In this document: positions 9,132 to 17,920 of the stretch, in pieces
How positions within the stretch are numbered: position 1 is the stretch's first letter
Layout: the number at the start of each line of letters is the position of its first letter
DNA from: Isoptericola luteus
GTDB taxonomy: Bacteria > Actinomycetota > Actinomycetes > Actinomycetales > Cellulomonadaceae
NCBI RefSeq assembly: GCF_020297055.1
Contig: NZ_JAIXCQ010000001.1
Coordinates: forward strand, 62,001 to 126,000
Length of the DNA: 64,000 bases
Direction: 5' to 3'
Notes under the pieces: model-generated
The model's input: the letters and a program-made list of their open reading frames with translations, nothing else
Told to the model about the DNA's origin: nothing
Databases searched by the model: none
Program-made: the position numbers and the translations under genes

Positions 9132-10625
9132 TCAGCCGATCCGCTCGCGGCGGCCCAGAATGCCCTGCGGGCGGAACAGGAGCACGAGGATGAGGATCAC
9201 GAGAGCCGACGCGTAACGCAGGTCGGACTGGATGAACAGGTTCGAGAGCTCGACGACGAGGCCGATGAGGATCGAGCCCACGAGAGCGCCGAACGCCGTG
9301 CCGAGCCCGCCGAGCGTGACCGCGGCGAACATCAGCAGCAGGAGCTGGACGCCGAGCTGCCAGTTCACCGCTCCGAACGAGATGCCCCACATCAGGCCGG
9401 CCAGCGCGGCGAACCCGGTGGCGACCACCCAGACGATGCGGACGATCTTGTCCGGGTCGATGCCGGTCGCCGCGGCGAGCGCCGGGTTGTCCGACACGGC
9501 GCGGGTGGCACGGCCGATCCGGGTGCGGGTGAGGAACCACGCGACGGCCACCATGCACACGACGGCGACGCCCATGGAGATCCACGACGCCGCGCTGAGG
9601 GTGATCCCCAGCAGCGTCCACGGCCTCGGGTTGCTGGTGAGGATGCGTTCCGTGCCGCCGCCGATGAGGAACTGGATGAAGAACTGCAGGGCGATCGACA
9701 GGCCGATCGACACGATCATCATCTGCATGATCGGGGTGCCGCGGCGCCGCAGCGGCCGCCAGATCCCGGCGTCCTGCGCGAGCCCGGTGAGGGCGCAGAC
9801 CGCGATGGTCAGCAGGCCGCCGAGCCAGATCGACATGCCCATCGTGTTGATCGTGAGGTACCCGAGCGCGCCACCGAGCGCGAACTGCTCGCCGTGCGCG
9901 AAGTTCGACAGGCCGGTGGTCCCGAAGATCAGGTTGAGCCCGATGGACGCCAGCGCGAGGAGCAGGCCGAAGCGGAGGCCGGAGCCGATCTGCTGCCACA
10001 CCTGACCCCACGAGAAGGACCGTTCCGACGCGTCGCCCTCGGGGGCCGCGCCGACGCCGTCCCCGGCGTCCGTCGCCGCCTCCTGGCCGTCGTCGGCCGG
10101 GGCGGAGCTGGTCTCGCTCTGGGCGGGGGGCGCGGCCGCGTCGGCGCCGACGCGGAACGCCGCGCGGGCGACGCCGCCCGTCTGCGCGGTCACCTCGAGC
10201 TCGGCCGGCGCTCCCTCGGGGAGGGGCTGGTCGGCGGGCAGCGTCGTCGGGTCGATCGTCGCGGTGTACTGACCGCTCGTCGGGACGGCGACCGCCTGCA
10301 CCTCCGAGGAGGTGGTGAAGGCCGCGCTGAACCCGTCCGGGCCCGTGATCGTGACCGCCACGTCGGGGATGCGCTCGTTCTCGTCGGTGAGGACGAACGC
10401 GGCGACGCACGCGGTGGTGTCGTCGGGCTTGCAGTCGGTCGCGACGTCCGAGGTCGTGGTGGTCGGCACGCCGGTCGCTGTGGTGGTGGCGACGCCGGTA
10501 CTGGTGCCGGTGCCGGTGGCTGCTGTCGCCAAGGGTGTGGCGACGGCCAGTGGTGCGAGCGCGATCGCGAGTGCCGCTGCAGTGCGGCGCAGCACGGTCG
10601 CGCGGGTGGGTCGGTCCGCTGTCAT
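9132..10625 (-). CDS. livH: ABC transporter permease, LivH-type, with signal peptide and exported N-terminal domain
   Basis: This 497-aa protein is far longer than ordinary LivH (about 290-310 aa). Residues 1-36 are a signal peptide (RRTAAALAIALAPLAVATPLATA). A Thr-rich linker follows, then a beta-rich domain at about 64-160 containing VAVTITGPDGF and SGQYTATIDP, reminiscent of Ig-like/carboxypeptidase-regulatory-like folds, with a possible disulphide Cys65-Cys73. An acidic Ala-rich linker (165-203) leads into the permease, which begins at WGQVWQQIGSGLRFGLLLALASIGLNLIFG and ends FRPQGILGRRE. The start at 10625 is chosen over the longer frame from 10721 because GGAGG lies 10 bases upstream and it gives a proper signal peptide. 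It is the first gene of livHMGF. Confidence 0.9.
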   Translation of the reverse strand: MTADRPTRATVLRRTAAALAIALAPLAVATPLATAATGTGTSTGVATTTATGVPTTTTSDVATDCKPDDTTACVAAFVLTDENERIPDVAVTITGPDGFSAAFTTSSEVQAVAVPTSGQYTATIDPTTLPADQPLPEGAPAELEVTAQTGGVARAAFRVGADAAAPPAQSETSSAPADDGQEAATDAGDGVGAAPEGDASERSFSWGQVWQQIGSGLRFGLLLALASIGLNLIFGTTGLSNFAHGEQFALGGALGYLTINTMGMSIWLGGLLTIAVCALTGLAQDAGIWRPLRRRGTPIMQMMIVSIGLSIALQFFIQFLIGGGTERILTSNPRPWTLLGITLSAASWISMGVAVVCMVAVAWFLTRTRIGRATRAVSDNPALAAATGIDPDKIVRIVWVVATGFAALAGLMWGISFGAVNWQLGVQLLLLMFAAVTLGGLGTAFGALVGSILIGLVVELSNLFIQSDLRYASALVILILVLLFRPQGILGRRERIG

Positions 10626-10975
10626 TCGACCGGGTCCTCCGTCGGGTCGGGGTATGGCGCCCGAGGCAGCTCGGGGTCCTACCCGCTCGCCCCGGAGATG
10701 CAGAGACACTAAAAGGGCCATGTATCACCAGGGTTTCGCGAGCGTGCCGGAAGTGTAGCGAGCAAAATGTGACCCACGTGACACGCGCGGATCACAGTCT
10801 GGCATCGGCCCCGGCTCTCGCCGTGCTGCGGCCCAGGTCGGCAGCGGGAGGTCGTTCCGCGGTCGCGGGAATGCTCGCCGCAAACCGTTGCCGAGCCGTG
10901 ATCTGCCGAGCGGCGCCGTGCGGAGCCGAGATGTCGCGCCTGAAGCGGCGTGGTGCCGCCGCGTACCCTGGCCGC
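10626..10975. other. 350-base divergent intergenic region between livH and oligopeptidase B
   Basis: No gene is supported here, although reading frames stay open because of the base composition. The region holds the livH promoter with the shared 17-base motif (10768-10784), a roughly 120-base livH leader, and the TACCCT hexamer (10964-10969) that serves the downstream oligopeptidase. An ATG at 10931 is in frame with the oligopeptidase but lacks a ribosome binding site. Confidence 0.6.
10752..10784 (-). promoter_or_regulatory. livH promoter with motif shared with livK promoter
   Basis: The motif TGTGACCCACGTGACAC (plus-strand sense, 10768-10784) covers the -35 region of a -10-like TACACT (minus strand, 10757-10752). 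The distance from motif centre to -10 start is 19 bases, identical to livK. The motif orientation relative to transcription is opposite in the two promoters. Confidence 0.55.
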
Positions 10976-10978
10976 GTG
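10964..10978 (+). promoter_or_regulatory. Leaderless -10 (TACCCT) for oligopeptidase B
   Basis: TACCCT (10964-10969) is followed after 6 bases by GTG (10976). Transcription would start at the start codon, which decides the start over the in-frame ATG at 10931. Confidence 0.6.
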
Positions 10979-13300
10979 TCCGACGTCGCGCAGCCCACCG
11001 AACCGCAGAGCACCGAACCGCAGAGCACCGAACCGCAGAGCACCGAACCGCAGAGCACCGAACCGCAGACCGCTGAAGCGCAGAGCAGCGAACCCGACCA
11101 GGCTCCCGTCGCCCCGCGACGCCCGGTGCGGCGCACCCACCACGGGGACACCGCCGTCGACGACTACGAGTGGCTGCGCGCCAAGGAGGACCCGGAGGTC
11201 CTCGCCCACCTGGAGGCGGAGAACTCCTGGACGGCGCAGCAGCTCGCCGGGCTGGCGCCGCTGCGCACGGCGCTGTTCACCGAGATCAAGGACCGCACGC
11301 AGGAGACCGACCTGTCGGTGCCGACACGGCTGGACGCCGCCTGGTACTACACGCGCACGCAGGAGGGCCGGCAGTACCCGGTCCACGCCCGCGTCGCGGC
11401 GTCCGACGTCGCCACCGCGGACGGGTGGACGCCGCCCGCCGTCGAGCCCGGCGTGGTGCCCGACGGCGAGCAGGTGCTGCTCGACCAGAACGCCGAGGCC
11501 GAGGGCCACGACTTCTTCTCGCTCGGCTCGTTCGACGTCTCGGGCGACGGCACGCGGCTGGCGTACGCCGTCGACACCACGGGCGACGAGCGGTACACGC
11601 TGCGGGTGCGTGACCTGACCACGGGCGCCGACCTGCCCGACGTCGTCGAGGACACGGCCCCCGGAGCCGTGCTTGCGCCCGACGGGGAGCACGTCTTCTA
11701 CCTCACCGTGGACGAGGCCTGGCGGCCGTACCGGGTGTGGCGCCACCGGATCGGCACCCCGGCGAGCGAGGACGTCCTGGTGCTCGAGGAGCCGGACGAG
11801 CGGTTCTGGCTGGGCGTGGGCCTGTCGCGCTCGCGGCGCTACCTCGTCGTGGAGCTGGGGTCCAAGACCACGAGCGAGGCGTGGGTGCTCGAGGCCGACG
11901 ACCCGACGGGTGCCTTCCGGCGGGTGTGGGAGCGCCGCGACGGCGTGGAGTACTCCGTCGAGCACGTGGAGCTGCCCGCCGCCCCGGGTGCCGGCGTCGC
12001 GCCGCGGGACGCGCTGCTCGTGCTGCACAACGACGGCGCGCGGAACTTCGAGCTCGTGCTGACGGACGTGCCCGCGCGTCCCGCGCCGGGCGCCGCGGCG
12101 GTGCCCCTCGACCCGGCGGCCGCGCGCGTCGTCGTGCCGCACTCGGCGGACGTCCGGCTCGACGGCGTGGAGGCGTTCGCGCGCCACGTGGCGCTGGCCT
12201 ACCGGGCGGACGCGCTGCCGCGCGTGGGCGTGGTCGACCTGGGGGCCGTGGAGCAGGGGTCGCCGTGGCCGGTCACCGAGATCGACGTCGACGAGCCGCT
12301 GTTCTCCGTGGGCCTGGACGCCAACCCGGACTGGCGCCAGCCCCTGCTGCGGGTGCAGCACACGTCGTTCGTCACGCCGGCGACGGTCGTCGACGTCGAC
12401 CTGTCGACCGGTGAGCGGCACGTGCGCAAGCGGCAGCCGGTGCTGGGCGGCTACGACCCGGACGACTACGTGCAGCGCCGGGAGTGGGCCGTCGCCGAGG
12501 ACGGCGCGCGGGTGCCGATCAGCCTGGTGTGGCGTCGCGACGCGGTGACGTTGGACGGGCAGGGCACCCGCGCGGAGCCGGCGCCTCTGGTGCTGTACGG
12601 GTACGGCGCGTACGAGACGAGCATCGACCCCTACTTCTCCGTGCCGCGACTGAGCCTGCTGGACCGGGGCGTCGTGTTCGCCGTCGCGCACGTGCGCGGC
12701 GGCGGCGAGCTGGGCCGCCGCTGGTACGACGACGGCAAGCTGGCCGCCAAGCCGCACACCTTCACGGACTTCGTGGCGTGCGGCCGGCACCTGGTCTCCA
12801 CCGGCTGGACGGAGCCCGGGCGGATGGTCGCCGAGGGCGGCAGCGCGGGCGGCCTGCTGGTGGGGGCGGTGACCAACCTGGCGCCCGAGCTGTTCGCCGG
12901 GGTGCTCGCGGTGGTGCCGTTCGTCGACGCGCTGACGTCGATGCTGGACCCCTCGCTGCCGCTGACCGTCGTCGAGTGGGACGAGTGGGGCGACCCGCTG
13001 CACGATCCGGACGCGTACGCGCTGATGCGCTCGTACACCCCGTACGAGAACGTGCCGGACGACGCCGCGCACTACCCGCGCGTCCTCGCCACGACCTCGC
13101 TGCACGACACCCGCGTGCTCTACGTGGAGCCCGCCAAGTGGGTGGCGCGGCTGCGCGCCGCGGGGGCGCCGGCGCTGCTCAAGATCGAGATGTCGGCCGG
13201 GCACGGGGGCGTCTCCGGGCGCTACGCGCGCTGGGAGGAGATCGCGTTCGAGAACGCGTGGGTGCTCGACGTCCTGGGACGGGCGGACGTCAGGGCCTGA
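10976..13300 (+). CDS. ptrB: Oligopeptidase B / prolyl oligopeptidase family serine peptidase (S9A)
   Basis: This 774-aa cytoplasmic peptidase cleaves short peptides, probably after basic residues. The N-terminal half is a beta-propeller region (about residues 60-480) and the C-terminal half an alpha/beta-hydrolase. The triad is complete: Ser in EGGSAGGLLVGA, Asp in SLHDTRVLYVEPAKW and His in MSAGHGGVSGRY; these contexts match oligopeptidase B. The family is about 680-720 aa; the excess is an N-terminal extension encoded by a 15-base tandem repeat (TEPQS x5). GTG at 10976 is taken as start because TACCCT lies 6 bases upstream (leaderless pattern). The gene is monocistronic and convergent with the NAD-kinase-like gene, overlapping its end by 11 bases. 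Confidence 0.93.
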   Translation: MSDVAQPTEPQSTEPQSTEPQSTEPQSTEPQTAEAQSSEPDQAPVAPRRPVRRTHHGDTAVDDYEWLRAKEDPEVLAHLEAENSWTAQQLAGLAPLRTALFTEIKDRTQETDLSVPTRLDAAWYYTRTQEGRQYPVHARVAASDVATADGWTPPAVEPGVVPDGEQVLLDQNAEAEGHDFFSLGSFDVSGDGTRLAYAVDTTGDERYTLRVRDLTTGADLPDVVEDTAPGAVLAPDGEHVFYLTVDEAWRPYRVWRHRIGTPASEDVLVLEEPDERFWLGVGLSRSRRYLVVELGSKTTSEAWVLEADDPTGAFRRVWERRDGVEYSVEHVELPAAPGAGVAPRDALLVLHNDGARNFELVLTDVPARPAPGAAAVPLDPAAARVVVPHSADVRLDGVEAFARHVALAYRADALPRVGVVDLGAVEQGSPWPVTEIDVDEPLFSVGLDANPDWRQPLLRVQHTSFVTPATVVDVDLSTGERHVRKRQPVLGGYDPDDYVQRREWAVAEDGARVPISLVWRRDAVTLDGQGTRAEPAPLVLYGYGAYETSIDPYFSVPRLSLLDRGVVFAVAHVRGGGELGRRWYDDGKLAAKPHTFTDFVACGRHLVSTGWTEPGRMVAEGGSAGGLLVGAVTNLAPELFAGVLAVVPFVDALTSMLDPSLPLTVVEWDEWGDPLHDPDAYALMRSYTPYENVPDDAAHYPRVLATTSLHDTRVLYVEPAKWVARLRAAGAPALLKIEMSAGHGGVSGRYARWEEIAFENAWVLDVLGRADVRA
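10997..11071 (+). repeat. 15-base coding tandem repeat (TEPQS)x5
   Basis: Five copies of ACCGAACCGCAGAGC (the last with one or two changes) lie in frame near the start of the oligopeptidase gene and encode a Thr-Glu-Pro-Gln-Ser repeat, followed by degenerate TAEAQSSEPDQ. Copy number is likely to vary between strains. Confidence 0.9.
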
Positions 13301-14243
13301 CGAGCCGCAGCGGCTCCTCCGCGGTCCGCACGGTGACGGTCTGGCCCCAGGACGCGACCAGCCGGTCGTCCTCCATCCCGTCGCCGAAGACGACGAGCCG
13401 GTCGGACGCCACGGTGAGGGCGACGACGTCCCCCGGCTCGATCGTGCCCTCCGTGAACCGCGTGCCGGTGCCCGGGGACGGCCACGCCTCGCGGACGAAC
13501 CAGCCCAGCCGGTCCTCGGTCGGGCTGGGGGCGGTGCGCCCGCCGCGGTCGTGCGCCAGGGAGGCCCACCAGCCGGACGCGCCCGTCCCCGTCGCCACCA
13601 GCAGCCCGGACGACGACTGACGCTCGCCCCCGGCGCCGCACCGCAGCGCGTACCGAGCGCTCTGGTGCGACGGGTGCCCGACGAACACCTCGTTGAGCGC
13701 CGTGAGGTGCTGCCCGTCGTCGAGGTCGGCGCGGACGGTGGTGAGCTCGTCGACGGGCAGCAGGGCGGCTCGATCTGCGCCGGCGCCGCCCGTCGCGCCG
13801 GCCGACGCTCCACCTGGTGCGCCACCCGGGGCGTCGCCGAGCGAGCGCAGCAGGCGCGTCGCCGCACGCACGGAGTGCCGCACCAGCACTCCCGCGTTGA
13901 CGCCGGGCTCGGGGTCGACGCCCAGCACCGGCTGCCCGTGCACGTACTTCGCGACGTTCGCCACGAGCCCGTCCTGGCCCACCACCACGACGACGTCCTG
14001 GGGCGCGACGAGGAACCGCGACAGGTCCGCGCGCTCGACGTCGGCCCGGGCCCAGCCCGCGGGCAGGGCGCCCACGACGGCGGCGCGGGCGTCGGTCAGG
14101 GCGTCGTGCCGCTCCTGGACCTCGGCGAGGGTGCGCCCGCGGGCGCGCAGGAAGAACTCGGCCTGCCCGCGGGTGCCGTGCCGGTCCAGCAGCTCGTCCA
14201 GCTCGGTGCGGCGGTGCACGACGACGGCCCGGCGGCGCAGCAC
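13290..14243 (-). CDS. NAD kinase-like protein (ATP-NAD kinase family)
   Basis: This 317-aa protein resembles the ATP-NAD kinase fold. A variant of the catalytic GGDG motif is present as VVVVGQDGLVANVA (about residues 86-99), the NE motif as TALNEVFVGHPSHQ, and the TPTGST-like loop as LLVATGTGASGWW. The first Gly of GGD is replaced by Gln while the Asp is kept, so activity is plausible but not certain. The start GTG at 14243 lies one base after the SPFH stop codon with GGAAGG 9 bases upstream; an upstream GTG at 14276 would overlap that gene. It is co-transcribed with the SPFH gene, and the divergent regulator is of the NrtR (NAD-metabolism) type, which supports a role in NAD(P) balance. Confidence 0.75.
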   Translation of the reverse strand: MLRRRAVVVHRRTELDELLDRHGTRGQAEFFLRARGRTLAEVQERHDALTDARAAVVGALPAGWARADVERADLSRFLVAPQDVVVVVGQDGLVANVAKYVHGQPVLGVDPEPGVNAGVLVRHSVRAATRLLRSLGDAPGGAPGGASAGATGGAGADRAALLPVDELTTVRADLDDGQHLTALNEVFVGHPSHQSARYALRCGAGGERQSSSGLLVATGTGASGWWASLAHDRGGRTAPSPTEDRLGWFVREAWPSPGTGTRFTEGTIEPGDVVALTVASDRLVVFGDGMEDDRLVASWGQTVTVRTAEEPLRLVRP

Positions 14244-14244
14244 G

Positions 14245-15291
14245 TCAGGCCGCCTTCCGCGCCGGAGTGCCGTCACCGTCCGGGGTGCCGCCGAGCGCGC
14301 CCTGGACCAGCGAGCCGACCAGCCCGGTGAGGAGGTCGGGCGTCACGGTGAGGTGCTGGACGGCGGGCAGCGACGAGGCGGCGTCGCGCAGGGCGAGCGC
14401 GACGAGCGTGCCCTGCCCGGCCTCGGTGTACACGTCCATCCGGGCGCGCTCGGCGTCCGCCTCGGCCTGGCCGACCGCTCGGACCTGGTCGGCGCGGGAC
14501 TCGGTCTCGAGCCGCCCCCGCTCGGCCCGCGCGCGGGCGTCGACGAGGGCGGCAGCGGCCTTCTCCTCGGCCTCCCGGCGGGCGTTCGCGCCCTCGTGCG
14601 CGACGAGGCGCTCGCGGCGGGTGGCGAGCTCGATCTTGCTGGCGAGCTCGTTCTCGGCGATGGCGCGCTCCCGCTCGACGGCGAGCGCCCGGCGCTCGTA
14701 GGTGGCGCGGTCGGCCTCGGCCTGCACGTGCTCGCGGGCGGGGGTCTGCAGGGCTCGTTCGACGTCCTTCTCGGGCCGCACGGCGAGCACCTGGACGCCG
14801 ACGACGGCGATGCCGGTCGCGGCCAGCCGGGGGTCGGCGGGCAGCACCTCGCCGAGCAGCGCGCGGACCCGGGGCACGCCGGCCGTCATGGCCTGTGCGA
14901 GCGACATCGAGGCGAGCACGTCGGTGGCGTGGCTCTGGGCGAGCTGTCCGACGATGCTCGTCACCTGGTCGCGGCCGTCGGTGCTGGTGGCCCCGCTGTG
15001 CGGGTCGACGGCGAAGTCCAGGCGCTGCGAGGCGGTCACCGGGTCGGTGAACCGGTAGGTGACGCCTGCCTGCACGGTGACGTCCTGGTGGTCGGTCGTG
15101 ACGGCGTGGAAGAAGACGGGCAGCTCCTGGTCGTCGACCGGTACCTCGCTGAGCACGGAGGTGGTGGGGCGGAACCAGAACGCCTGCCCCACGCCCTCGT
15201 GCGCCACGCGGCCGTGCCGCAGGTGTACGACGTGCCCGGTGGGGCTGCCGAGGAAGTGGCGGATCCAGGGGTAGCTGCGGATGGTGGCCAT
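14245..15291 (-). CDS. SPFH/Band 7 domain protein
   Basis: This 348-aa protein has the SPFH (stomatin/prohibitin/flotillin/HflK) domain at about residues 15-190, with FFHAVTTDHQDVTVQAGVTYRF and the helix VLASMSLAQAM typical of the fold, followed by a long coiled coil (about 190-300; ERERAIAENELASKIELATRRERL, rich in Ala/Glu/Arg). There is no obvious N-terminal membrane helix, so it may be soluble or peripheral. The ATG at 15291 is chosen: AGAGGG lies 8 bases upstream, better than the GTG at 15300. SPFH proteins form oligomeric rings and membrane scaffolds. It is the first gene of a two-gene operon with the NAD-kinase-like protein, under palindromes shared with the divergent regulator. Confidence 0.88.
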   Translation of the reverse strand: MATIRSYPWIRHFLGSPTGHVVHLRHGRVAHEGVGQAFWFRPTTSVLSEVPVDDQELPVFFHAVTTDHQDVTVQAGVTYRFTDPVTASQRLDFAVDPHSGATSTDGRDQVTSIVGQLAQSHATDVLASMSLAQAMTAGVPRVRALLGEVLPADPRLAATGIAVVGVQVLAVRPEKDVERALQTPAREHVQAEADRATYERRALAVERERAIAENELASKIELATRRERLVAHEGANARREAEEKAAAALVDARARAERGRLETESRADQVRAVGQAEADAERARMDVYTEAGQGTLVALALRDAASSLPAVQHLTVTPDLLTGLVGSLVQGALGGTPDGDGTPARKAA

Positions 15292-15309
15292 GAGGGGCAC
15301 CCTCTTTCC

Positions 15310-15322
15310 TGTCAGAGTGACG
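15310..15322. promoter_or_regulatory. Palindrome 1, TGTCA-GAG-TGACG (putative NrtR-type operator)
   Basis: One of three 13-base palindromes in the 108-base divergent gap. It lies just before the SPFH ribosome binding site and has one mismatch in the right arm. Confidence 0.6.
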
Positions 15323-15331
15323 ATTAATTGA

Positions 15332-15344
15332 TGTCAGGATGACA
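15332..15344. promoter_or_regulatory. Palindrome 2, TGTCA-GGA-TGACA (putative NrtR-type operator)
   Basis: This perfect copy has its centre 22 bases from palindrome 1 (two helical turns). It overlaps the -10 hexamer TAGTGT (minus strand, 15347-15342) proposed for the SPFH operon. Confidence 0.65.
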
Positions 15345-15370
15345 CTAAGGGTGGTCGGGGTTCTCGTCAA
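15342..15370 (-). promoter_or_regulatory. Promoter of the SPFH/NAD-kinase-like operon
   Basis: On the minus strand TTGACG (15370-15365), a 17-base spacer and TAGTGT (15347-15342) make a good sigma-70-type promoter. Palindrome 3 overlaps the -35 and palindrome 2 the -10, which suggests repression. Confidence 0.6.
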
Positions 15371-15377
15371 GCTGACA
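15365..15377. promoter_or_regulatory. Palindrome 3, CGTCA-AGC-TGACA (putative NrtR-type operator)
   Basis: Its centre is 33 bases (three turns) from palindrome 2. It covers the -35 regions of both divergent promoters, so one bound protein could control both directions. Confidence 0.6.
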
Positions 15378-15387
15378 TCAAAGCCGG

Positions 15388-15402
15388 TAGGGTGGCGGGA
15401 TG
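15388..15402 (+). promoter_or_regulatory. Leaderless -10 (TAGGGT) for the NUDIX regulator
   Basis: TAGGGT (15388-15393) stands 6 bases before the ATG at 15400, so the mRNA is probably leaderless. Confidence 0.6.
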
Positions 15403-16307: not shown

Positions 16308-17597
16308 ATGGAAGGCGTGACCGAGACGCTTCTGCTCGCGCTCGTCGTCGTGACTGCACTGGCCTTCGACTTCACGAACGGCTTCCACGACACGGGCAAC
16401 GCCATGGCAACCTCCATCGCCACGCGAGCCCTCAAGCCCAAGACCGCCGTGACCCTGTCCGCCGTCCTCAACCTGGTCGGCGCGTTCATGTCTCTCGCGG
16501 TCGCCGCGACCATCGCCAAGGGCATCGTCGACGCCGGAGTCATCACGCTCCCCGTCGTGCTCGCGGGTCTGGTCGGCGGCATCGTCTGGAACCTGGTGAC
16601 CTGGCTGTTCGGCATCCCGTCGAGCTCGTCGCACGCTCTCGTCGGTGGCATGGTCGGCGCCGTGCTCGCGGCCGTGGGCACCTCCGGCGTGCTGTGGAGC
16701 GGCGTGATCTCCAAGGTGCTGGTGCCCGCGCTGCTCGCGCCCGTCATCGCGATCGCCGTCGCCGGGCTGGGCACGTGGTTCGTGGCCCGCCTGACGCGCG
16801 GCGTGCCGCAGGAGGTCAGCAACCGCGGCTTCCGCTGGGGGCAGATCGGCTCCGCGTCCCTCGTCTCCCTCGCGCACGGCACCAACGACGCGCAGAAGTC
16901 GATGGGCATCATCCTGCTCGCGCTCATCGCGGGTGGCGCCGTGCCGGCCGACTCCAGCGTGCCGTTCTGGGTGATCCTCAGCTGCGCCGTGGCGATGGCG
17001 CTCGGCACCTACCTGGGCGGCTGGCGGGTCATCCGCACCCTCGGCAAGGGCCTCGTCGAGATCGACTCGCGGCAGGGCATGGCGGCGGAGACGTCGTCGG
17101 CCGCCGTCATCCTGCTCTCGAGCCACTTCGGCTTCTCGCTGTCCACCACGCACGTCGCGACCGGATCGGTGCTCGGCTCCGGTGTCGGCATGCCCGGCGC
17201 GAAGGTCCGCTGGAACGTCGCGGGGCGCATGTTCGTGGCGTGGCTGGTCACCCTCCCCGCGGCCGGGCTCGTCGGCGCGGTGTGCCACTGGCTGGAGTCC
17301 GCGATCGGCGGCACGGCCGGCACGCTGGCGGTCTTCGGTCTGCTGATCGTCACCTCGGCCGCCATCTGGATCGCCTCCCGTCGCAAGCCCGTGGACCACA
17401 ACAACGTCAACGAGGCGTGGGACGAGGAGAAGGGCGCGGACCTCGAGTCCGTCGCCGCCACCACCGGTGAGGTCGGCCCCGAGCGTGTGGGTCCGCTGCC
17501 CGCCGTGCCCACCGCGGTCGGCCCGATCCTCGGGTCGGTCGAGTCCGTCGAGTCGTTGGCGCCCGTCGGCGCCGCGCAGGGGAAGGTTCAGGCATGA
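16308..17597 (+). CDS. pit: Inorganic phosphate transporter, PiT family
   Basis: This 429-aa membrane protein couples low-affinity phosphate (metal-phosphate) uptake to the proton gradient. Both halves carry the PiT signature: FDFTNGFHDTGNAMATSIATRAL near residue 20 and VSLAHGTNDAQKSMGI near 185. About ten membrane segments are visible, with GIPSSSSHALVGGMVGA and LSTTHVATGSVLG as the paired re-entrant motifs. The C-terminal about 55 residues are hydrophilic. ATG at 16308 has no clear ribosome site; a GTG at 16317 follows GGAAGG too closely. It overlaps the next small membrane-protein gene by ATGA, and a PHO-box-like element lies upstream. Confidence 0.93.
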   Translation: MEGVTETLLLALVVVTALAFDFTNGFHDTGNAMATSIATRALKPKTAVTLSAVLNLVGAFMSLAVAATIAKGIVDAGVITLPVVLAGLVGGIVWNLVTWLFGIPSSSSHALVGGMVGAVLAAVGTSGVLWSGVISKVLVPALLAPVIAIAVAGLGTWFVARLTRGVPQEVSNRGFRWGQIGSASLVSLAHGTNDAQKSMGIILLALIAGGAVPADSSVPFWVILSCAVAMALGTYLGGWRVIRTLGKGLVEIDSRQGMAAETSSAAVILLSSHFGFSLSTTHVATGSVLGSGVGMPGAKVRWNVAGRMFVAWLVTLPAAGLVGAVCHWLESAIGGTAGTLAVFGLLIVTSAAIWIASRRKPVDHNNVNEAWDEEKGADLESVAATTGEVGPERVGPLPAVPTAVGPILGSVESVESLAPVGAAQGKVQA

Positions 17598-17884
17598 GCT
17601 TCATCGACTGGGGCGCGCTGATGCAGGTCCTCGTGGCCGGGCTGATCCTCGGCGCCGGCGCCCCCGCGCTGTTCGCGCTCGGCCTGCGGCTGCTGGCGGG
17701 GACCGCACCCGTCGCGCCCGAGGGCGCTGCCGCGGCGTCGTCCGACGGCGAGGCCACCGCGAGCGCGACCGTGACCATCGCCCGCCCGACGCCGGTCCGC
17801 CTCGTCGGGGCCATCGCCTGCCTCGGTGTCGTGGTCGGCGCCGTCGCCTTCGGCCTGGTCTTCGTCGTCTCCGGCGGGCACTGA
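17594..17884 (+). CDS. Small two-span membrane protein coupled to pit
   Basis: This 96-aa protein has two hydrophobic segments (about residues 8-34 and 69-92) separated by an Ala/Ser-rich loop. The ATG overlaps the pit stop codon (ATGA, 17594-17597), which implies coupled translation and a role with the transporter. A gene of this kind follows pit in other actinobacteria as far as I recall, but I know of no assigned function. Its stop codon is the first TGA of a 10-base tandem repeat. Confidence 0.7.
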   Translation: MSFIDWGALMQVLVAGLILGAGAPALFALGLRLLAGTAPVAPEGAAAASSDGEATASATVTIARPTPVRLVGAIACLGVVVGAVAFGLVFVVSGGH

Positions 17885-17920
17885 CCGGCACTGACCGGCA
17901 CTGACCGGCACTGACCGGCG
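17881..17920 (+). repeat. 10-base tandem repeat (CTGACCGGCA)x4 containing the stop codon
   Basis: Four copies, the last with one change, start at the stop codon of the small membrane gene. Each copy carries TGA, and because the unit is 10 bases the TGAs (17882, 17892, 17902, 17912) fall in all three frames. Confidence 0.9.

Follow-up and report, generated by a model that had tools for sequence, protein, structure and literature searches.

Transcription factors of the NrtR type, in which a Nudix domain is followed by an NrtR winged helix, are known for their control of the synthesis and salvage of nicotinamide adenine dinucleotide (NAD). NrtR, as described for MsNrtR, represses NAD genes and is released by ADP-ribose (PMC6800001), the regulator NdnR responds to NAD (cited in PMC4666351), and as a rule the Nudix box is impaired in the NrtR regulators of NAD metabolism (PMC4666351). 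Here we analyze a stretch of 64,000 nucleotides of Isoptericola luteus (the window; contig NZ_JAIXCQ010000001.1 of assembly GCF_020297055.1, positions 62,001 to 126,000 of the forward strand), in which three palindromes lie between the gene of an NrtR-type regulator and a divergent operon for an SPFH (Band 7) protein and a kinase resembling NADK2. We consider it likely, judging from sequence comparison, that these palindromes are the operators of the adjacent regulator, which would act as an autorepressor and as the repressor of the SPFH and NADK2-like module, and whose release would probably be triggered by ADP-ribose or a similar dinucleotide derived from NAD.

The locus shares with SoNrtR of Shewanella oneidensis and MsNrtR of Mycobacterium smegmatis the order of Nudix domain and winged helix, a divergent gap with a palindromic operator and the arginines that contact phosphate and ribose. 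It differs from them in its target, which is the SPFH and NADK2-like operon rather than genes of NAD synthesis or salvage, in the complete Nudix box of its actinobacterial branch, and in its operator, which is TTATCGTCA-N3-TGACGATAA compared to GTTTTCGA-N7-TCGAAAAC for the NrtR of Mycobacterium (PMC6800001). NadQ of Proteobacteria has a related winged helix (7q91), and its 21-bp operator, ttATRCTCannntGAGYATaa, is laid out like the one described here; its effector domain is of another kind, and its predicted role is the control of NAD biosynthesis (PMC5343134). An accessory cassette under a Nudix-helix-turn-helix (Nudix-HTH) repressor, proposed to sense ADP-ribose, is also found in the ADP-ribosylglycohydrolase-centred systems with their Nudix-HTH/WYL repressors; the cassettes that Nudix-HTH repressors are predicted to run there differ in that they hold ADP-ribosylglycohydrolase, phosphatases and chaperones (PMC9503650), and the terms SPFH, stomatin, band-7 and NAD kinase did not turn up when that paper was searched for them. 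The literature searched, which did not extend to the 2008 NrtR-family paper (Rodionov et al.) or RegPrecise, contained no link of NrtR with SPFH or prohibitin and none of SPFH with NAD kinase or NADK2. The type of regulator is known, and the new parts are its SPFH and NADK2-like target and its complete Nudix box.

In Actinomycetota, and in examples from the Alpha-, Beta- and Gammaproteobacteria, a family of regulators known from NAD synthesis and salvage is thereby tied to an NADK2-like kinase and its SPFH partner gene. This connects SPFH scaffolds with signals derived from NAD in a concrete and testable way, and it offers a uniform bacterial setting of one operon, one operator set and one sensor in which to ask what the uncharacterized NADK2-like family does. 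The complete and the broken Nudix boxes of its two branches would, in addition, permit a direct test of whether the sensor also removes its own signal.

Probable operators between the regulator gene and the SPFH operon

Allowing at most one mismatch, the pattern TGTCA-N3-TGACA matches three places in the 64 kb, all of them in the gap between the regulator and SPFH genes, and when the 112-bp stretch was shuffled 20,000 times a mean of 0.0023 such hits and a maximum of 1 were obtained. The palindromes are real, and their positions agree with the three centres and the spacings of 22 and 33 bases given in the original prediction; that prediction had also written all three as TGTCA-N3-TGACA, which is exact only for the middle one, while in each of the outer two the outermost base of one arm differs. 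The loose form of the pattern, with up to two mismatches, is not significant by itself, since the window holds 12 matches where 12.7 are expected.

In order to count operators in relatives we used 114 loci, 34 including the window and 80 from named genomes, from which 4 exact duplicates were dropped; the limit was set at 6 mismatches to the full motif and the intervals were widened to avoid cutting into the gap. The original prediction had named the absence of the palindromes upstream of orthologous gene pairs as one outcome that would refute it, and the scan found at least one site in 95 of the 96 divergent regulator/SPFH gaps, at least two in 84 and three in 7, some of the third ones being weak. 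Altogether these gaps hold 186 sites compared to 0.29 expected by shuffling and none for the reversed pattern, and the sole gap without an operator by this count (locus L093) has two TGTCA-N3-TGACA palindromes by eye, with diverged flanks. An earlier pass with narrower intervals and a limit of 7 mismatches gave operators in 90 of 95 regions. The consensus was drawn up on the first 34 cassettes before being used on every locus. A more independent test is thus provided by the named loci, where 64 of 68 had an operator on the first pass. Two operators are the usual number in relatives; the third of the window (O1) is limited to near relatives and recurs at the same 22-bp spacing in L031, L033 and, with diverged arms, L032.

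The operators sit on predicted promoter elements (Table 1), and the earlier claim that palindrome 3 covers both -35 regions and palindrome 2 the SPFH -10 holds on a reading of the sequence; the -35 of the regulator gene is weak (TCGTCA inside palindrome 3, with an 18-bp spacer). After dropping identical segments 101 of 102 loci could be scored, and among the 89 that have TTGAC and enough sequence a TANNNT follows at a spacer of 17 or 18 bp in 85, whereas sliding the spacer as a control gave 0-2 loci at every other value from 8 to 27 bp, 5 at 28 bp and 10 at 29 bp. Conservation of this -10 is not independent of operator conservation, since TATCGT belongs to the operator consensus. The base after GTCA is an A in 90% of the regulator-side operators compared to 20% in the neighbouring operator, and it is this conserved A in the unpaired centre that creates TTGAC on the SPFH strand. 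On the other side of the gap, hexamers resembling TAGGGT were seen by eye, without a count, 6-7 nt ahead of the regulator ATG in several relatives, and because the -10 lies only 6 nt from the ATG the regulator transcript is probably leaderless.

The commonest spacing from centre to centre is 33 or 34 bp (59 of 91 adjacent operator pairs), and it fits the geometry of a promoter, the SPFH -35 being part of one operator and the -10 being overlapped by its neighbour. Arthrobacter-type copies have their second operator 44-45 bp away, and in one of these regions (L049) the -10 lies free between both operators. In place of the even helical phasing that had been proposed, the promoter spacer of 17-18 bp accounts for the main spacing of 33-34 bp, although the remaining spacings of 22 and 44-45 bp likewise change in steps of about one turn. 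Phasing alone was rejected as the cause of the 33-bp spacing, most of which promoter geometry explains.

This arrangement suggests how the switch might work. A regulator dimer on O3 would cover the SPFH -35 together with the -35 region of the regulator's own gene, a second dimer on O2 would cover the SPFH -10, and O1 would provide a third site near the transcription start, such that the bound regulator would hold both divergent promoters off and repress its own gene along with the operon. Once a ligand entered its Nudix pocket, the likeliest candidate being ADP-ribose or a similar dinucleotide made from NAD, the regulator would leave the DNA, and the SPFH scaffold and the NADK2-like kinase would be switched on. 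We infer this binding, repression and ligand, as well as a role of the operon in NAD(P) homeostasis or during NAD-consuming stress, from the positions of the sites and the families of the proteins.

Table 1. Features of the regulator/SPFH/kinase locus, in positions of the window
Feature	Position	Strand	Remarks
NAD-kinase-like (NADK2-like) protein	13290-14276	-	likely start GTG at 14243, 1 nt past the SPFH stop
SPFH (Band 7) protein	14245-15291	-	PF01145, 4.2e-13, 50.2 bits (cut-off 23.6)
Palindrome 1, operator O1	15310-15322 (TGTCAGAGTGACG), centre 15316		downstream of the SPFH operon's -10, probably in its 5' untranslated region
Palindrome 2, operator O2	15332-15344 (TGTCAGGATGACA), centre 15338		overlaps the SPFH -10
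SPFH operon predicted -10, TAGTGT	15342-15347	-	17-bp spacer; overlaps palindrome 2
SPFH operon predicted -35, TTGACG	15365-15370	-	inside palindrome 3; 89 of the 101 scored loci have TTGAC[GAT] here
Palindrome 3, operator O3	15365-15377 (CGTCAAGCTGACA), centre 15371		holds the SPFH -35 and the regulator -35 region
Regulator gene predicted -10, TAGGGT	15388-15393	+	6 nt before the ATG; read from sequence
NrtR-type regulator, 266 aa	15400-16200	+	Nudix and NrtR winged helix, from Pfam profiles, solved relatives and alignment

The regulator, its proposed ligand and other explanations

That the divergent gene encodes an NrtR-type regulator, as first proposed, is supported by its Nudix domain (PF00293, 63.2 bits with a cut-off of 21.1, E 3.2e-17), its winged helix (PF21906 NrtR_WHD, 54.3 bits with a cut-off of 27, E 1.5e-14) and its best solved relative, the Shewanella protein 3gz5/3gz6 (1e-27); other solved relatives are AraR and, for the winged helix, NadQ (7q91). 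BtAraR contacts DNA through six residues, R180, N181, K184, R205, K179 and K204 (PMC4666351), and the first four of these align with R196, N197, K201 and R222, which are invariant in the regulator. Similarly, the SoNrtR residues Arg41 and Arg98, which contact ADP-ribose (PMC4666351), align with the invariant R46 and R102. The Nudix box G-x5-E-x7-REU-x-EE-x-GU is complete in all 32 actinobacterial rows of the alignment, which is why this branch of the regulator may still hydrolyze a nucleotide; the box is impaired in all 4 proteobacterial cassette regulators checked, out of 6.

The sites appear to belong to the regulator. In the Jonesia copy L089, to which L054 is identical here, an insertion parts the regulator and SPFH genes (807 bp between matches), yet each promoter has retained operators. 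Two Streptomyces genomes have the regulator gene away from the SPFH operon; an operator immediately precedes that gene, and two further ones precede the operon. These solitary regulators (L153, L155) adjoin, by eye, an apparent gene for an ATP-binding cassette (ABC) transporter ATPase. The fact that in Proteobacteria the operator changes along with the regulator while staying in the same place, as described below, supports the ownership of the sites by the regulator, with motifs that come from few sequences. The operator set is real and strongly conserved, and its owner is most likely the neighbouring NrtR-type regulator.

Across the genome the loose core YGTCA-N3-TGACR has 31 matches, of which 28 fall outside the cassette, and because of these copies a single one means little and it is the cluster that counts. 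Unlike the three of the window, the 28 are all more than 100 bases apart, and the only pair within 3 kb on one contig is 381 bases apart (contig C6, 4697 and 5078). The full pattern with at most 3 mismatches has 5 matches in the genome, 3 on the cassette (two palindromes, strands counted) and 2 in long open frames elsewhere, several of these frames overlapping. Two pairs of loose-core places, L178/L183 and L189/L190, have identical site letters and the same composition figures around them, which suggests duplicated elements.

Several observations weigh against the assignment of the operators to this regulator or of the regulator to NAD. The regulator misses the cut-off of the NCBIfam NtrR equivalog NF050029 (102.8 bits compared to 400), and the remaining two of the six DNA contacts of AraR, K179 and K204, are not conserved in it. 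Of 14 SPFH loci without an adjacent regulator 9 have no operator at the limit used, two of which are truncated by a contig end (L097, L129) and one of which has core palindromes with diverged flanks (L062); all 12 of the genomes searched for these 14 loci encode a related regulator somewhere (best E from 4e-47 to 3e-112), and an operator lies near the best unlinked copy in 3 of the 12. With 4-5 mismatches, 6 of the 28 loose-core places outside the cassette match the full consensus about as well as the window sites do with 4, 5 and 4, so the regulator may have further targets in the genome. In the Nudix domain Asn43 and Lys76 of SoNrtR are not conserved, Lys76 being aligned with a glutamate of the Nudix box, and no clear counterpart of Tyr10/Phe15, which contact the adenine, can be made out in the regulator of the window, the YDP motif being present in 9 of 32 rows. 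Finally, the operator could be connected with no gene of NAD synthesis, so that the link to NAD draws on the kinship of the regulator and on the kinase; on these two grounds we regard it as probable.

One alternative keeps the operators and the repressor but assumes a ligand that is not an NAD metabolite. The Nudix domain would then have been retuned, to a different nucleotide, to a sugar or to whatever the kinase produces. The NrtR family has switched its ligand before, as BtAraR binds L-arabinose (PMC4666351), and the SoNrtR contacts missing from the regulator point in the same direction. We nevertheless hold this to be somewhat unlikely: Arg98 of SoNrtR, a glycine in AraR, is invariant in the cassette regulators, the gammaproteobacterial cassette adjoins a regulator very close to SoNrtR, which responds to ADP-ribose (1.7e-108 and nearly full length for that of Providencia compared with the crystallized protein), and the operon includes an NADK2-like protein. 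It is much less probable that the palindromes serve a different, unlinked regulator and that the neighbouring Nudix protein is a hydrolase only. Such a role would agree with the complete Nudix box, unlike that of classical NrtR, and with those SPFH loci that have neither an adjacent regulator nor operators in a genome with a related regulator, but it is at odds with a winged helix above the Pfam cut-off, with four invariant contacts of the AraR type, with operators that remain at the regulator gene even when it is separated or moved (the 3 of 12 moved copies), and with the diverged operators that stand at the same place in lineages with a diverged regulator. A hairpin or attenuator, or mere chance, in place of operators has next to no credibility. 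The loose pattern is, as noted, no commoner in the window than by chance, but the sites are kept in nearly all relatives and fall on predicted promoter elements, and the number of conserved sites led us to reject chance as their source. An NAD-responsive autorepressor acting on its own operators is the reading we prefer.

The SPFH protein and the NADK2-like kinase

The operon had been described as SPFH/NAD-kinase-like, a description now supported by the Pfam Band_7 match, a profile match to NADK2 and structural comparison with Foldseek. The conserved start codon of the SPFH gene is the ATG at 15291, whose methionine (M4) is invariant; the open reading frame (ORF) prediction begins at the GTG at 15300. 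Its AlphaFold model has a mean predicted local distance difference test score (pLDDT) of 83 and a predicted template modelling score of 0.51, and consists of an SPFH domain and, after it, a helix some 115 residues long; its fold matches HflK/C (Foldseek 1.4e-11), stomatin, flotillin, prohibitin and vault protein. An N-terminal membrane segment is typical of SPFH membrane scaffolds such as HflK/C; the protein of the window has no clear membrane segment, its highest hydropathy over 19 residues being 1.35 at residue 156.

For the kinase a Pfam search gave no match above the cut-off (NAD_kinase, 15.3 compared to 25.5 bits). A profile search placed human NADK2 first (4.6e-14), and with the model of the kinase (mean pLDDT 89.9) Foldseek likewise placed NADK2 structures first, with 7r4m at the top (2.0e-17), so that the human mitochondrial enzyme is the closest solved relative. 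Among the best 50 of 159 matches at E<=0.001 all are NAD kinase entries, the chains of 2an1 being titled putative kinase. The signature motif of NAD kinases is GGDG, for which the window protein has GQDG, and G100, D102, G103 and N195 are invariant in 31 rows.

Distribution of the cassette and neighbouring features

The arrangement of regulator, SPFH and kinase genes is a conserved cassette. When named genomes were scanned with the alignment of the kinase, 559 places were confirmed, of which the best 80 were kept, a sample biased to near relatives; in the flanking DNA examined, an SPFH gene was present at all 80 and a divergent regulator at 68. Across genomes the parts are patchy, with the SPFH protein in 39 of 297 genomes sampled from the order (E<=1e-10) and the kinase in 13 of 396 sampled from the phylum (E<=1e-30) and in 4 of 18 of the genus. 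In the genus, these four are also the genomes in which the regulator has a close match, at E of about 1e-110 or below, whereas the best match outside them reaches 6e-25. Protein distances of the three cassette genes correlate with r of 0.83-0.91 over 31 loci, a figure in which shared ancestry is uncontrolled. A record of Sporosarcina beigongshangi (L109, Bacillota) also has the cassette, with an identity of 73-81% to the nearest among six reference copies from actinobacteria, which indicates either recent transfer or contamination.

Outside the Actinomycetota, a tblastn search of plasmids with the kinase gave 64 records, 42 of them from Rhizobium, and 9 records were inspected. NUDIX, SPFH and kinase genes are annotated in the same order in Rhizobium etli p42f, Providencia and Methylomonas, and all three cassette genes were found by tblastn in Cupriavidus, Acinetobacter and Proteus. 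Treponema and Roseomonas have SPFH and kinase genes with no regulator in the stretch examined, and a Streptomyces plasmid has the SPFH/kinase pair with operator-like palindromes and no regulator listed nearby. The occurrence of the three-gene arrangement in such distant bacteria points to an overlooked NAD-linked module.

The operator-like sites of the gammaproteobacterial gaps differ from those of the window and are of the type TTAGTGTC-N5-GACACTAA. Their spacings (33, 25 and 21 in Providencia, 35 and 25 in Acinetobacter and Proteus) are near the 33 and 22 of the window, the Methylomonas gap has two weak sites only, and the gaps of Cupriavidus and Rhizobium hold still other palindromes. A generic palindrome finder was significant for Rhizobium and Cupriavidus, where the top score was reached in 3 and 1 of 100 shuffles, and not for the gammaproteobacterial gaps, where it was reached in 13 (Acinetobacter), 18 (Proteus), 91 (Methylomonas) and 92 (Providencia). 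A 21-bp motif, written after viewing the sequences, is repeated in these four gaps, and its count was never matched by 1000 shuffles; since it was chosen in this way and the reversed-pattern control gave 1 hit compared to its 2 weak hits in Methylomonas, it is descriptive there.

The cassette might also be read as an inducible and horizontally spread module of NAD defence or NAD repair, a doubtful proposal to which we give a rather low probability. Breakdown of NAD to ADP-ribose, whose sources would be NAD-cleaving toxins, defence enzymes, phage or the turnover of ADP-ribosylation, would free the sensor, the SPFH assembly would house or recruit a dedicated NADK2-like kinase, and the complete-box sensor of Actinomycetota would hydrolyze its own inducer and so reset itself. 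PADLOC found no known anti-phage system, its one weak match being PDC-S07 (0.0018) to the Nudix region of the regulator with none for the SPFH protein or kinase, and tblastn of the kinase against 50,697 phage records at 1e-5 gave no match.

On Acinetobacter lwoffii pALWED1.1 (L175) the cassette directly adjoins tetR(H)-tet(H), in a Proteus mirabilis H63 record (L177) it is close to tet(J), and small plasmids of Actinobacillus, Pasteurella and Psychrobacter gave partial kinase matches only. Because of these tetracycline-resistance neighbours and partial copies, pieces of the cassette may travel with such genes.

On the 3' side of the regulator gene the window encodes a PiT-type phosphate transporter (PF01384) and a small ORF (16308-17884, + strand), which are kept in three near relatives (L031-L033) and not matched in L034. 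At the end of the small ORF, ACTGACCGGC is repeated four times head to tail (17880-17919). The product of an ORF at 10535-13300 resembles a prolyl oligopeptidase, and within this ORF, at about 10980-11060 (+ strand), a tandem repeat encodes STEPQ units near the N-terminus of the protein.

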